From positions 1-49,796 of the IMG/VR virus record IMGVR_UViG_3300023284_001200: a stretch of DNA of 49,796 bases. One strand, 5' to 3'. Source of the DNA: a virus. The notes under the pieces were generated by a model. That model had not been told where the DNA came from, made no database searches, and worked only from the letters and a program-made list of their open reading frames with translations. Below are positions 1,902 through 41,267 of the stretch, one piece after another. A program made the translations under genes and the position numbers. The number at the start of each line of letters is the position of its first letter. Within the stretch, counting starts at the first letter, position 1.

Positions 1902-2146
1902 CAGGTGATATAGTTGATTTTACGGGCACGACTATATTGGATAGTGACCCAGATCGTATATTAGATGCAGCAAAGACTGAACTTGATACTGTTATCATTA
2001 TTGGTGAAGCTAAGGATGGAAGTCTTTGGGTATCAAGTAGTACATCGGATAAAACATTAACTATATATTTAATAGAGACAGCAAAGTTTGAACTTTTGTC
2101 AATTGATATGAAAGATCGGAATTCAGAAGGACCATCGGCAACATGA
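1898..2146 (+). CDS. Conserved small phage protein (82 aa)
   Basis: ATG 1898 overlaps the previous stop (ATGA); AAGGA lies 11 bases upstream. The layout, an N-terminal VDFTGTT, then DPDRILDAAK, then VIIIGEAKDGSLWVSSS and a C-terminal helical part, matches from memory a small conserved hypothetical family in phages of Gram-negative bacteria. No active-site motif is visible. Its C-terminal EGPSAT repeats the tail of the previous protein because both tails encode the next gene's ribosome site. Soluble and cytoplasmic; function unknown. Confidence 0.75.
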   Translation: MTGDIVDFTGTTILDSDPDRILDAAKTELDTVIIIGEAKDGSLWVSSSTSDKTLTIYLIETAKFELLSIDMKDRNSEGPSAT

Positions 2147-2469
2147 AAATTTCAAGACGTAAATTTTTCAGTAAATCTTTTAGATTCTTAGCAGCTTCCA
2201 TTCCAGCGATTATTGGAGTGGTAGCAGTTCGTAATTTGGATATTCCTTATCCCAAAGCACCACCTTATTTTGCTAAAATAGGTGAAACCAAAACTTTTGG
2301 TTGGTATCCGCTGGATACTGATGCTGATGTAATACTTGATGGGATTACTGAAGTTGATTGCGTCAAAGGATATGCACATCAAATAGTTTATGATAGCAAA
2401 GGAGCGCCTACAGGTGAACAACGACTCATTCATGGAAACTTTAAATTAGTAAAAATGACAATATCATGA
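2143..2469 (+). CDS. Tat-signal protein 1 of 3, unknown function (108 aa)
   Basis: The first gene of a tandem triplet. The N-terminus MKISRRKFF followed by about 16 hydrophobic residues is a twin-arginine signal (S-R-R-x-F-F plus h-region), implying folded export across the inner membrane or anchoring there. No clear AxA cleavage site is seen, so it may stay as a membrane anchor. The mature part (about residues 32-108) contains PYPKAPPYFAKIG, a FGWYPLD segment and DCVKGYAH. It matches no enzyme I recognise. It is nearly identical to the next gene over the first 45 residues. Start and stop overlap neighbours as ATGA. Confidence 0.8.
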   Translation: MKISRRKFFSKSFRFLAASIPAIIGVVAVRNLDIPYPKAPPYFAKIGETKTFGWYPLDTDADVILDGITEVDCVKGYAHQIVYDSKGAPTGEQRLIHGNFKLVKMTIS

Positions 2470-2768
2470 AAATTTCCAGACGCAAATTTTTTAATAAATC
2501 TCTTAGATTCTTAGCAATGCCTATTTCGGCAATTATTGGAATAGCAACAGTTCGTAATCTAGATATTCCCTATCCCAAAGCACCACCTTATTTTGCCAAG
2601 GTCGGTGAAGGGAATTGGTATGGATGGCAACCTTATGATTGTGACACAGGTAAAAAACTTGATCGTATTGCTGAAATTGATTGCGTTAAGGGGTATGCTC
2701 ACGAACTTCAAAAAGATGGATCTCAACGAATCATTTTAGGGAATTTTAAACTGGTGAAAATCTCATGA
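2466..2768 (+). CDS. Tat-signal protein 2 of 3, unknown function (100 aa)
   Basis: A tandem paralogue of the preceding gene: MKISRRKFF, a hydrophobic stretch, then RNLDIPYPKAPPYFAKVG almost unchanged. The middle has diverged (YGWQPYDCDTGKKL) while DCVKGYAHEL and the closing GNFKLVK are kept. It is eight residues shorter because of a gap near the C-terminus. The twin-arginine motif with hydrophobic region predicts Tat targeting. The start overlaps the previous stop as ATGA, so the triplet is probably translated as a coupled set. Function unknown; duplication followed by divergence is inferred from the alignment. Confidence 0.8.
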   Translation: MKISRRKFFNKSLRFLAMPISAIIGIATVRNLDIPYPKAPPYFAKVGEGNWYGWQPYDCDTGKKLDRIAEIDCVKGYAHELQKDGSQRIILGNFKLVKIS

Positions 2769-3109
2769 AGATTTCAAGACGCCATTTCTTTTTATCATTT
2801 CTAGCCGTGCCTTTTGTTGGCATGTTAGGTTTTATTGGTAAAAAATATACAATTGCAATGTATGCGAATAGATCGGAAATTAATACGGGAAGACAAATCG
2901 GTTGGTATTATATTGATTCAAATAGGTGGGTTTTTAGTAAAGATTTTAAAGAAGCCACATCTGTTTGGTATGATCTACACGGAATAACCGAGGCCATGAA
3001 AAGTCCTGATCATTCATGCTGGCAAGATATTCCACGGGAGTATCTTCCGTTTTATGATATCAGATGTGTTCCCGATGAAAGATTTGAGGAATTGATTAAT
3101 GGCGTATAG
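2765..3109 (+). CDS. Tat-signal protein 3 of 3, unknown function (114 aa)
   Basis: A third, more diverged member. MKISRRHFF plus a hydrophobic stretch (LSFLAVPFVGMLGFIG) again gives a twin-arginine signal. The QIGWYYID segment aligns with FGWYPLD and YGWQPYD of the first two copies, and DLHGITEA aligns with DGITEVD of copy 1. The C-terminal half is new, with C and W residues (DHSCWQDIPREYLPF). The last ten bases of the gene are also the start of the tRNA gene, so the stop codon TAG lies within the tRNA acceptor/D-arm region. Function unknown. Confidence 0.75.
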   Translation: MKISRRHFFLSFLAVPFVGMLGFIGKKYTIAMYANRSEINTGRQIGWYYIDSNRWVFSKDFKEATSVWYDLHGITEAMKSPDHSCWQDIPREYLPFYDIRCVPDERFEELINGV

Positions 3110-3174
3110 CTCAGTGGTAGAGCAATCGGCATATAACCGATAGGTCAGGGGTTCAATTCCCTTTGCGCCTACCA
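3100..3174 (+). tRNA. tRNA-Ile-like (anticodon UAU), CCA encoded
   Basis: A full cloverleaf can be drawn: acceptor 3101-3106 with 3164-3169, D-stem GCTC/GAGC (3109-3112/3120-3123), anticodon stem ATCGG/CCGAT (3125-3129/3137-3141), T-arm with loop TTCAATT, discriminator A and encoded CCA (3172-3174). The seven-base anticodon loop CATATAA puts UAU at 34-36, reading AUA (Ile). Position 33 is A instead of the near-universal U. Position 1-72 would be a U-U mismatch. The gene overlaps the end of the upstream CDS by ten bases. AUA codons occur in the phage genes, fitting a codon-supply role if the RNA is active. Confidence 0.75.
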
Positions 3175-3177
3175 ATA

Positions 3178-3301
3178 GCGTCTGCGGAGTGTTGTGATAT
3201 TTTAACAACCAACTTGAAAAAGGATAGTTGCGATTCACAATGTGCTTGACACACACATACATACATACACAGCGAATCACAAATCACAGCTCCGTAGACG
3301 C
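3178..3301 (+). ncRNA. Structured RNA element, copy A
   Basis: A 12-bp closing stem pairs 3178-3189 with 3290-3301. A TGTT/AG internal loop follows (3190-3193 and 3288-3289), then a 5-bp stem GTGAT/ATCAC (3194-3198/3283-3287) and ATTTTAA. The interior holds CAACT/AGTTG (3210-3214/3226-3230) and GATTC/GAATC hairpins and a short ACAT-rich run. Copy B, 27 bases downstream, has the same architecture with compensatory base changes in the closing stem. An AGGA-N8 ribosome-site-like stretch follows (3307-3318), but the start codon position reads ATT. Confidence 0.7.
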
Positions 3302-3327
3302 TTGTCAGGATAAAAATTATTGGAATA

Positions 3328-3410
3328 GTACCTACGGGGTGTTGTGAGATTTTAATACGATTGGCAAATTGTACCTTAGTACGCAGACTAAATCACAGCT
3401 CCGTAGGTGC
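3328..3410 (+). ncRNA. Structured RNA element, copy B (upstream of 3428 ORF)
   Basis: The 12-bp closing stem pairs 3328-3339 with 3399-3410. The TGTT/AG internal loop and ATTTTAA of copy A are conserved, and a 4-bp GTGA/TCAC stem continues it. A GTAC-CTTA-GTAC hairpin lies inside at 3371-3382. Compared with copy A, two pairs change on both sides (G-C to A-U, U-A to C-G) and three more keep pairing through G-U. The element is followed by AGGA, eight bases, then ATG 3428. It probably acts as a leader controlling that ORF, or is a processed RNA. Confidence 0.7.
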
Positions 3411-3427
3411 TTGTTAGGACAAAGATT

Positions 3428-3526
3428 ATGAAATTCTTTCTTGGTGTTGTAGGTGGTGCGATATTGGTCATTGGGCTGATTATGATCGCTCTTTGGTTCT
3501 ATTTTCAGTACACGGCGATGATGTGA
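3428..3526 (+). CDS. Small single-span membrane peptide (32 aa)
   Basis: ATG 3428 follows AGGA (3416-3419) by eight bases. The peptide MKFFLGVVGG continues as one hydrophobic helix of about 20 residues and ends with a polar tail (YFQYTAMM). Its TGA shares one base with the ATG of the next gene (TGATG), indicating coupled translation. It lies directly after structured element B, so it may be the regulated product. No homologue can be named. Confidence 0.6.
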   Translation: MKFFLGVVGGAILVIGLIMIALWFYFQYTAMM

Positions 3527-3966
3527 TGGCTACTTTGACTGATATATCTTTAGTCACACCTAAATTGCGGAAAACAATAGAAAAATATCACGAATGGTTC
3601 AGATCACCGAGTCCATGGTTCGATGTAATAAAAATGGAGAATTCAAAGGTGACAGCATCTGTATTTAGGAAAAAAGCTGCAAAAAAGGTCAAATCGGCGT
3701 CCAAATCGGTCTCTAAGTCCAAAAAACCTGTCAAAAAGGCAAAACCTACGCAATCCGTCAGTAAACGTACAATTCGGACAAAACCAGCAAAATTTGAATA
3801 TTGGTATGACCCTGAGAGGGGAAACAAATGGTTTTGGGTATTAAAAGCCTCAAATGGGCACGTTGTGGCACGTTCATGGGGTTTTGATAGTGAAAAAGAG
3901 CTAATATCTTATGTTAACGCCCTGAAAAAACATACTGGTCGGGCAAAAGTCAGCCAACGGACGTAA
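3526..3966 (+). CDS. Lys-rich protein with YegP/DUF1508-like C-terminal domain (146 aa)
   Basis: Start chosen at ATG 3526 because it overlaps the upstream stop (TGATG); an in-frame TTG at 3493 would run through the upstream ORF. Residues 1-55 form a small N-terminal region. Residues about 58-90 are a run of Lys/Ser (KKAAKKVKSASKS and following) likely to bind nucleic acid. The C-terminal 50 residues, with WYDPERGNKWFWVLKASNG and a later ARSWGF, resemble the DUF1508/YegP fold: an F-x-W-x-L-K-A-x-N-G-x-x-I/V pattern followed by S-x-G-(Y/F). Role unknown; the YegP-like assignment is moderate. Confidence 0.7.
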   Translation: MATLTDISLVTPKLRKTIEKYHEWFRSPSPWFDVIKMENSKVTASVFRKKAAKKVKSASKSVSKSKKPVKKAKPTQSVSKRTIRTKPAKFEYWYDPERGNKWFWVLKASNGHVVARSWGFDSEKELISYVNALKKHTGRAKVSQRT

Positions 3967-4089: not shown

Positions 4090-4584
4090 ATGTTTAATAT
4101 TTTTAGATCAAAAGAAGAAATTGATTTGAAAAGATGTATGCCTAGTGAAATAAAATCTGATCCACCTGAAATCATGGTAATTAAGCCGCCGAAGGTGCCT
4201 TTATTTAAAATTGGTGAATTTAAAGCTGCAAGTGGATTGAAGTTAGATTGGAAGGTTGAATGCGATATTTTAACTGAAGATGATTGGATATGGGCGGCAA
4301 GACATATATCCAGAAAATTTGCTTTTCATAGTGTGTTTTCCATATCAACTGGGGGCGACAAATTTATGTTCGCTCTAGATTGTTACACAAGACCTGAAGA
4401 TAGTCGTACACGAATCATTTGTGATGATGTTTTGACAACAGGTCGATCCATGGAGGCCAAGAGGCAAGAACTTTTAATTAATGATCCGTTACTTTGTGAA
4501 GACGATATTCAGGGTGTTGTTCTGTTTCAACGTCGGCCTGGTTTGGTTGACTGGATTTATCCGATTTGGAGGATGTGGGATTGA
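4090..4584 (+). CDS. Phosphoribosyltransferase-like protein (164 aa)
   Basis: ATG 4090 has GGAG six bases upstream. Residues 109-120, IICDDVLTTGRS, are the PRPP-binding loop of type I phosphoribosyltransferases (two Asp followed by TTG-x-S). STGG near residues 86-89 could be the pyrophosphate loop. Overall size suits an orotate-PRTase-like fold. The substrate base cannot be inferred from sequence. The family transfers ribose-5-phosphate from PRPP to a base, so a role in nucleotide or NAD-precursor salvage is possible. It overlaps the region of the next gene's start. Fold is fairly secure; substrate is unknown. Confidence 0.75.
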   Translation: MFNIFRSKEEIDLKRCMPSEIKSDPPEIMVIKPPKVPLFKIGEFKAASGLKLDWKVECDILTEDDWIWAARHISRKFAFHSVFSISTGGDKFMFALDCYTRPEDSRTRIICDDVLTTGRSMEAKRQELLINDPLLCEDDIQGVVLFQRRPGLVDWIYPIWRMWD

Positions 4585-38922: not shown

Positions 38923-41267
38923 CAGTCGCACTCCGAGTAGTCACAAGAAGTGCATTTTGCACAGCCCTCTTGATGAATTAAAGTTCGTTTCTCACACTTA
39001 GGACATAGCTCACCAGTTACAAAACTATGTTCAACATAGTTCTTTATATCCTCTTCTTGTGGCAATGTTGTTATGTCACCTTCCTCAAGGTAACCGATAT
39101 CCAAAAGAAAAATATTTAAAGTTTGGCCAATTAGAGCTACAAGACTTGGTACGTGTTCTTTATTAATCCAATGAGCATCGCCTGATGGAGAATGAATCTT
39201 CTCCAATTCTTCAATCATAAATCGAATGTCACCACCCCGTCTAAAAACGGCTGATGTAATTCTGGTCAAAGCTTGCAAAAATTCAGAGTGTTTAACAGAC
39301 TGGCTATTGATAAACATTTCAAATGGAATTTTCTTGCCATCTTTTTCCATCCAATTAAATGTAATATAATATTTGTCATTACCCCATCGAACTTTATAAG
39401 TACGACCTTTCAATTGATCGGGTCGGGGCATCTTTGTAGGTCCAATTGGAGAGATAATATGTTTATTTTTCTTTTCAATTTCTTTGAGAACAGCACCCCG
39501 ACCCGATTCTGGATTAGGCCGATACGTTGTGCAACCTTTTAGTCCCATATCATAAGCATCTTTGTAAACATTCTTAAATTCTTCAAACGGTATATCTGCC
39601 GGACAATTAATTGTTTTTGATACGGATGCATCAATATGAATTTGACATGCCCCTTGTACAGCCAAATGATCTGCAACAGTCAAATCTTGCGCCGTTACCA
39701 TATAGTCTGGAAGTTTTTCAGGAGTGTGCAATACTGCTTTACTTGGATCTATGTGTGAAGGTAAAAACCTTTTCATATATTCTTGATAACCATAATCCCG
39801 AACAATAAATGGTTTGTCAATATCTTTCACATATCGTTCACATTCCCACATGAAAGTCGGCTCAAGACCTGAACTAACATTTCCATAATAAAGAGATGTC
39901 GTACCTGTAGGTGCAATGGTCAGCAACACCCCATTACGAATTCCATATTGTGCAATTCCTTCTGTTATTCCTGGGGGAAGACGTTCGATAAATTTTGATT
40001 CAAGGTATTTTGTTTTTTTAAATGCTGGAAAAGGACCACGTTCTTTAGCTAACTCAATAGACGCTGAATATGCTGCAATTTTAATATCCCCCATGACACG
40101 ATTGATAAAATCATAACAATCAGCATTATTTCCATACCGTATTTTCATAAATTGAAGAGCATTGGCAAGGCCGGTAATCCCAAGACCTGTTCGACGTTTT
40201 TGCATAGCTTCTTCTTTTTGAGCAGGAGTTGGATATTGTGATACGTCAAGCACATTATCCAAAAATCGAACAGCCATTTTTGTCGTATCAATTAATGAAT
40301 CATAATCGAATTCAGGATTGGTAAATGGTTCAACTACAAACTTGGCAAGATTTATTGCGCCAAGGTTACACGCCCCATTTGGCGGCAAAGGTTGTTCACC
40401 ACAGGGATTTGTACATTGAATTTCTTCACAGTATTTAAGATTGTTTAGATCATTTACACGGTTGATAAAAATGACACCGGGTTCAGCATAATTATACGTT
40501 GATCGAATTATTTTTTCCCAGAGATCACGGGCACGAACTGTTTTATAAACATAAACTTTTTCACCCCCTGGTGCATAAATTATATCTTCACTTTTAATAT
40601 TTCCTGCTGGTGGGGCTTTGTGCCACAATTTCCATTCTCTATCATCTTTAATTGCTTCCATGAAAAGATCAGAAGTTAAAATTGACACATTAAAATTGGT
40701 TAATCTTCCCGGTTCTTTTTTAGCGTCAATGAATTCTTCAATGTCAGGATGCCAACAACCCAATGTGCCCATGAGAGCACCCCGGCGTCCCCCGGCTGAT
40801 ATAATTGTGCTGCACATGGCGTTTTGTTGATCCATAAATACAAGTGGACCCGCACTTATAGAACCTGTTCGACCAACCAAGGCCCCTCTGGGTCGCAATG
40901 GGGAGAAATCGGTGCCATTACCCCCACCCATTTGTAATGTAAAGGATGCATCTTTTAGAACATCCATAATGCCAACGCCTTTTTCAGAGGCTAAACTGTC
41001 TTCCATTTCTGGGCTTACAAAACAATTAATGAGAGTTACACGCTTACTTGTACCAGCACCAGCTTGAATACGACCGGCAGGACACCACTGGCGATCAATC
41101 ATTCTAACATAGGCTTCATGCATGGCATCTTGATCTTTATCTTTAGCATAAACACTATTTACAACTCGTTTAAAACTGGCCTCTATATTTTTTTCATTTT
41201 TATACCGATACTTGTCTTGCCAAACATGTTGGGTAATTTCTTGTTCAGTAATCATTACGTCATTCAT
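38922..41267 (-). CDS. nrdJ: Class II (adenosylcobalamin-dependent) ribonucleotide reductase (781 aa)
   Basis: Reduces ribonucleotides to deoxyribonucleotides; needs vitamin B12 and works with or without oxygen. NPCGEQ (287-292) has the thiyl-radical Cys289 and Glu291. The redox pair is Cys82 (INCFVSP) and Cys300, eleven residues after Cys289 as in known class II enzymes. GRTGSISAGPLVFM and IAPTGTTSLYYGNVSSGLEP are conserved. The C-terminus has a Zn-ribbon-like CPKC...CTSCDYSEC tail that could shuttle electrons. AAGGAAA precedes the ATG. No small subunit gene is next to it, consistent with class II. Confidence 0.9.
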   Translation of the reverse strand: MNDVMITEQEITQHVWQDKYRYKNEKNIEASFKRVVNSVYAKDKDQDAMHEAYVRMIDRQWCPAGRIQAGAGTSKRVTLINCFVSPEMEDSLASEKGVGIMDVLKDASFTLQMGGGNGTDFSPLRPRGALVGRTGSISAGPLVFMDQQNAMCSTIISAGGRRGALMGTLGCWHPDIEEFIDAKKEPGRLTNFNVSILTSDLFMEAIKDDREWKLWHKAPPAGNIKSEDIIYAPGGEKVYVYKTVRARDLWEKIIRSTYNYAEPGVIFINRVNDLNNLKYCEEIQCTNPCGEQPLPPNGACNLGAINLAKFVVEPFTNPEFDYDSLIDTTKMAVRFLDNVLDVSQYPTPAQKEEAMQKRRTGLGITGLANALQFMKIRYGNNADCYDFINRVMGDIKIAAYSASIELAKERGPFPAFKKTKYLESKFIERLPPGITEGIAQYGIRNGVLLTIAPTGTTSLYYGNVSSGLEPTFMWECERYVKDIDKPFIVRDYGYQEYMKRFLPSHIDPSKAVLHTPEKLPDYMVTAQDLTVADHLAVQGACQIHIDASVSKTINCPADIPFEEFKNVYKDAYDMGLKGCTTYRPNPESGRGAVLKEIEKKNKHIISPIGPTKMPRPDQLKGRTYKVRWGNDKYYITFNWMEKDGKKIPFEMFINSQSVKHSEFLQALTRITSAVFRRGGDIRFMIEELEKIHSPSGDAHWINKEHVPSLVALIGQTLNIFLLDIGYLEEGDITTLPQEEDIKNYVEHSFVTGELCPKCEKRTLIHQEGCAKCTSCDYSECD

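Follow-up and report, generated by a model that had tools for sequence, protein, structure and literature searches.

What kind of RNA is specified by two adjacent elements that share a long closing stem around different interiors, and what might such a pair do between a phage tRNA gene and a small open reading frame? The question is raised by the left end of a virus record of 49,796 bases (39.5% GC), the whole of which was analysed and is referred to here as the window. The phage is an uncultivated, Yuavirus-like siphophage, with a large terminase of 51-55% identity to Yuavirus-like and related phages and of at most 68% identity to relatives in IMG/VR, and its other genes include those of a portal, a major head protein, tail proteins, a DNA polymerase and a ribonucleotide reductase. 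The leftmost 5 kb, which includes the two elements, here called A and B, is almost without counterpart in 80 terminase relatives, among which the ORF 1563-1901 provides the sole match, a single and weak one.

This part of the genome holds small genes duplicated in tandem. At 2143-3109 on the plus strand, three paralogous ORFs follow each other, the products of which start with MKISRR.FF, a twin-arginine-like beginning; the first two proteins are 68% identical, and neither a Pfam family nor viral relatives were found for the group. Equally on the plus strand, a rod-like intergenic hairpin at 505-625 (-48.7 kcal/mol, z -5.8), with TATAAT at 511-516 just upstream of its main stem and without a match in Rfam, may be considered a second candidate structured RNA of the same phage. 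A strong stem, ATCGGGTCGGGG/CCCCGACCCGAT, was furthermore observed on the minus strand at 39400-39525 within the ribonucleotide reductase gene (z -4.4).

Architecture and setting of elements A and B

The initial annotation of this locus had described two adjacent elements by their sequence features, with which the letters agree; a tRNA-Ile gene ending at 3174 was absent from it, and the presence of this adjacent gene changes the interpretation of the elements. The gene occupies 3100-3174 on the plus strand, has the anticodon UAU and an encoded CCA, and was recognised by ARAGORN and by Rfam RF00005 at 61.7 bits. Element A starts 3 nt past its 3' end, at 3177. In the tRNA itself, U1·U72 is a mismatch, and the anticodon loop, CATATAA, has A at position 33 where U is usual; the Campylobacter phage tRNA most similar to it, annotated as tRNA-Met, reads CTCATAA in this loop.

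Counted from the first to the last base of the closing stem, element A spans 3177-3302 and element B 3327-3411, both on the plus strand and both supported by folding z-scores, by shared blocks and by the stem count. The order of parts is the same in the two copies: a 13-bp stem, a U·G pair, a 2-nt GU bulge, a 5-bp inner stem, the strand AUUUUAA, an apical part and a tail. The closing stem P1, an inverted repeat, pairs 3177-3189 with 3290-3302 in A and 3327-3339 with 3399-3411 in B. It had been given as 12 bp; the stem is present, and it is one pair longer in both copies, 13 bp, or 14 if the U·G pair is counted. Likewise, the letters of the supposed internal loop TGTT/AG are there, and they are better read as the U·G pair, the GU bulge (3191-3192 in A, 3341-3342 in B, from RNAfold and the alignment of the copies) and a U-A pair, which belongs to the inner stem P2, in which UGUGA (3193-3197; 3343-3347) pairs with UCACA (3284-3288; 3393-3397) according to RNAfold and the pair count. 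A near-continuous duplex of about 19-20 bp, some two helical turns, thus results in A and B alike (13 bp, U·G, bulge and 5 bp). Behind the 5' arm of P2 follows the AUUUUAA strand, at 3199-3205 in A and 3349-3355 in B, conserved in the alignment.

The apical parts differ, as had been noted. That of A (3206-3280) contains a CACA/TACA microsatellite and that of B (3356-3389) two hairpins predicted by RNAfold, and a comparison of the two interiors detected no similarity, the alignment score being equalled by shuffled sequences in 37% of trials. Taken singly, the apical hairpins fold no better than shuffled sequence (z -1.55 for A, -1.39 for B), and a conserved three-way junction of these hairpins, although predicted in both copies, was rejected as no better than shuffles. 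Similarity between the copies resides in two blocks, of 32 nt at 81% and of 40 nt at 88% identity. The second block includes the tail, a direct repeat, which in A (3303-3321) carries AGGA at 3307-3310 and ATT at 3319-3321 and in B (3412-3430) the Shine-Dalgarno sequence AGGA at 3416-3419 and ATG at 3428-3430; the arrangements AGGA-N8-ATT and AGGA-N8-ATG had been correctly recorded. A third copy of the element was not found in the window. Equally, an intrinsic terminator, that is a short-loop GC hairpin with a U run, was considered and discarded, as 3174-3430 contains no terminator-like site and the loops of the elements comprise tens of nucleotides. From ATT 3319, the place of the ATG of B, a frame is open through all of B (3319-3417, plus strand) and codes for 32 aa, the very length encoded by the ORF past B; this may be chance.

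The end of B lies 5 nt from the Shine-Dalgarno sequence of the first downstream gene, an ORF at 3428-3526 on the plus strand. Its 32-aa hydrophobic product, MKFFLGVVGGAILVIGLIMIALWFYFQYTAMM, reached no protein family above the cut-off and is a putative small membrane peptide. Its stop codon overlaps (TGATG) the start of a gene for a DUF1508 protein (3526-3966, plus strand; Pfam PF07411, E 9.5e-07). An ORF at 4090-4584 on the same strand carries a phosphoribosyltransferase-like motif, IICDDVLTTGRS, with Pfam PF00156 below its cut-off (E 0.008). In the fold of B by itself, the Shine-Dalgarno sequence is predicted to be unpaired; its exposure is not certain, because a weak pairing between the tails is predicted when A and B are folded together.

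Folding, covariation and duplication

Stems with 14 contiguous pairs including at least seven GC pairs occur in the whole window at A and B only, while in random sequence of equal dinucleotide frequencies 0.07 such stems per window are expected. A and B are not independent in this count, because duplication could have made the second from the first. Folding z-scores amount to -5.0/-5.2 for A and -3.8/-4.2 for B. The closing stems of the two copies differ at seven of 26 positions, and all 13 pairs are kept in both copies: two pairs changed on both sides and three by way of G·U, exactly as listed initially. The double changes, G-C to A-U and U-A to C-G, concern the third and fourth pair of the 12-bp stem as originally delimited. 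Read on the plus strand, which is also that of the flanking genes, each of the three imperfect pairs is G·U and none is A·C.

How much this pattern says about selection depends on the substitution model. In a neutral model, seven randomly placed substitutions keep all pairs in 4.9% of cases if only transitions are allowed, in 1.1% with 80% and in 0.1% with 50% transitions, so that the p value ranges from 0.05 to 0.001, set by the assumed transition bias. A control in which changes were dealt out by shuffling did as well as the real data in 137 of 500 shuffles, and such a control is powerless with two sequences. Covariation between two copies is weak as proof, since pairing is passed on when a stem is duplicated and a transition often leaves a G·U pair; the independent evidence is the changes after duplication. 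The initial wording, 'direct evidence of selection', was therefore too strong for two copies; that pairing was kept stands, and the evidence for selection on RNA structure, judged from two paralogous sequences, is moderate. Folding z-scores, pair counts and the rarity of the stem bear out the description of A and B as homologous structured RNAs whose outer stem has stayed paired, and the RNA structure of A and B is probably real. Like the neighbouring genes, the pair arose by tandem duplication, the core being retained and the interior exchanged.

Searches for homologues

No known RNA family had been recognised in the elements, and the covariance models of Rfam 15 agree: the tRNA alone reaches the threshold, and nothing relevant appears up to E 10. 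A loose double-pseudoknot descriptor for HDV-like ribozymes gave no match near 3175, and its matches elsewhere in the region stayed within the range of shuffles. With blastn, 3174-3530 gave nothing above chance among phages and plasmids, and the top matches of 3090-3530 were those of the tRNA. Exact and gapped patterns of the core were run over IMG/VR and GTDB genomes; among the matches listed and inspected none had the 13-bp outer stem, and these matches are chance ones without a stem. A covariance model, R1, was built from the two copies, as the initial annotation had suggested, and it recovers both of them together with, weakly, the reverse strand of B (18.4 bits, E 0.42). Applied to the loci of the 80 terminase relatives, to 30 whole records and to about 550 bacterial genomes, it detected no homologue, the large bacterial scans having been run with stricter filters with which weak matches could be lost. 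Neighbouring proteins used as bait found no relatives either. Diverged relatives of A and B may exist beyond these empty searches; as it stands, the pair is an orphan RNA element of a known general kind.

Long stems do follow some tRNA genes of related phages. Behind three of their minus-strand tRNAs (L019 7152-7226, L021 485-558 and L023 2592-2665), stems of 12-14 pairs start no more than 8 nt from the tRNA 3' end: in L019 the long stem CCGGTGGGTTGC/GCGACCCACCGG directly past a tRNA-Gly(GCC), and in L021 and L023 long stems after a tRNA-Cys, where the corresponding hairpins differ in sequence yet stay paired. Stems of at least 12 pairs follow 3 of 15 tRNAs of the relatives versus 2 of 80 random places (Fisher p 0.027), a comparison with a small sample that was devised after the cases had been seen and in which two of the three cases are corresponding genes. 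In a mixed sample of 19 phage tRNAs, no clear trend towards long-loop stems was apparent.

Possible roles and known systems

The most likely role, which can be proposed tentatively and by analogy, is that of a cis-acting processing or insulating structure of the RNase III type between the tRNA and the downstream mRNA. A and B would be tandem intercistronic RNAs on a plus-strand transcript, situated between tRNA-Ile and the two-gene unit of the 32-aa peptide and the DUF1508 protein, with tRNA, elements and downstream genes presumably co-transcribed. A host nuclease specific for double strands, RNase III for instance, would bind or cut the duplex; processing would free the 3' side of the tRNA and would create or protect the 5' end of an mRNA bearing the Shine-Dalgarno sequence past B, and maturation of the tRNA might thereby be separated from translation of the 32-aa ORF. 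RNase III cuts intercistronic stems of phages, as at the T7 sites and in the lambda N leader. With these A and B have in common a long duplex broken by no more than a small internal defect in an intergenic position upstream of a ribosome-binding site; they differ by a branched or enlarged apical part, by the tandem copies, by the conserved unpaired core and by the tRNA upstream. An interior that is free to change suits a duplex substrate. Also in favour are the positions of A right after the tRNA and of B right ahead of the Shine-Dalgarno sequence, the pairing retained through seven changes with its G·U pairs on the plus strand, the lack of a terminator-like site and the long stems past tRNA genes of related phages. 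On the other hand, the conserved bulge, AUUUUAA and the tail count against a plain duplex substrate, which needs none of them, and the association of stems with tRNAs in relatives consists of few and partly orthologous cases.

The same conserved parts, bulge, AUUUUAA and Shine-Dalgarno tail, might serve in recognition, and a cis-regulatory leader, riboswitch-like or a protein operator, is therefore the main rival, though an unlikely one. A ligand or a phage protein would alter translation of the 32-aa ORF, with bulge, AUUUUAA and tail as the recognition core, the apical hairpins as variable periphery and copy A as a second sensing unit or a duplicate without its gene. The core is 81-88% identical while the interiors share nothing, B ends 5 nt upstream of the Shine-Dalgarno sequence, and a tandem layout is known for some riboswitches, all of which would fit. 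Yet no Rfam family matches and the collections searched contain no homologue, whereas riboswitch classes are usually widespread; furthermore, the predicted apical hairpins are no better than shuffles, and B by itself shows no evident alternative fold in which the Shine-Dalgarno sequence would be hidden.

Two stable small RNAs of the phage, released from the tRNA transcript and trans-acting or structural, are an unlikely alternative for which phage T4 provides the template. There, tRNA-Arg is directly followed by rnaD and rnaC (species 2 and species 1 RNA) of 119 and 139 nt, the function of which is not known (PMC3014915). The layout here is the same, two tandem structured RNAs of similar length (about 85-126 nt) right after a phage tRNA, and closed ends would give stability. 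However, homology in sequence or structure with rnaC and rnaD is lacking, R1 with filters off giving only chance-level matches in the T4 region; the T4 annotation has no start codon with a Shine-Dalgarno sequence directly behind rnaD/rnaC, nor is a core shared between those two RNAs noted, and in the present elements a conserved tail that bears a Shine-Dalgarno sequence and a start codon speaks for a leader instead.

It is improbable that A and B are simply tandem copies of a palindrome that arose by chance or was once useful, and that they have no function now. The region is rich in tandem duplications, a copied stem inherits its pairing, and simulations restricted to transitions keep all pairs in 5% of cases; but even one such stem is expected just 0.07 times per window, the stem is still fully paired around interiors between which no similarity is left, every imperfect pair is a G·U if read on the strand to which the flanking genes belong, and there is no third copy in the window.

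Improbable as well is the more far-reaching proposal of a new phage RNA class with a GU-bulge/AUUUUAA core and variable arms, in which a tandem sensing or self-processing leader would tie tRNA maturation to translation of the membrane peptide. Theta ribozymes, minimal HDV-like ribozymes associated with tRNAs, cleave no more than 5 nt from the tRNA 3' end (PMC10879173), and a self-cleaving ribozyme at this place, theta/HDV-like or of a new motif and cutting at the tRNA 3' end, is very improbable: A does begin 3 nt from the tRNA, as theta ribozymes would, but B is not adjacent to any tRNA, no nested double pseudoknot is present at the expected start, the outer stem is far longer and no ribozyme family of Rfam matches up to E 10.

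For one phage without homologues, the claim of a recurrent RNA site at tRNA 3' ends would be too much, and the interest of the finding is modest unless homologues or transcript ends are shown. If the proposed processing or insulating role is true, however, A and B would be a clean case of a structured RNA between a phage tRNA and the gene of a small membrane protein. Together with rnaC and rnaD of T4, the theta ribozymes and the stems in related phages, the elements would suggest the 3' side of phage tRNAs as a recurrent place of structured RNAs, several of which have no assigned role.
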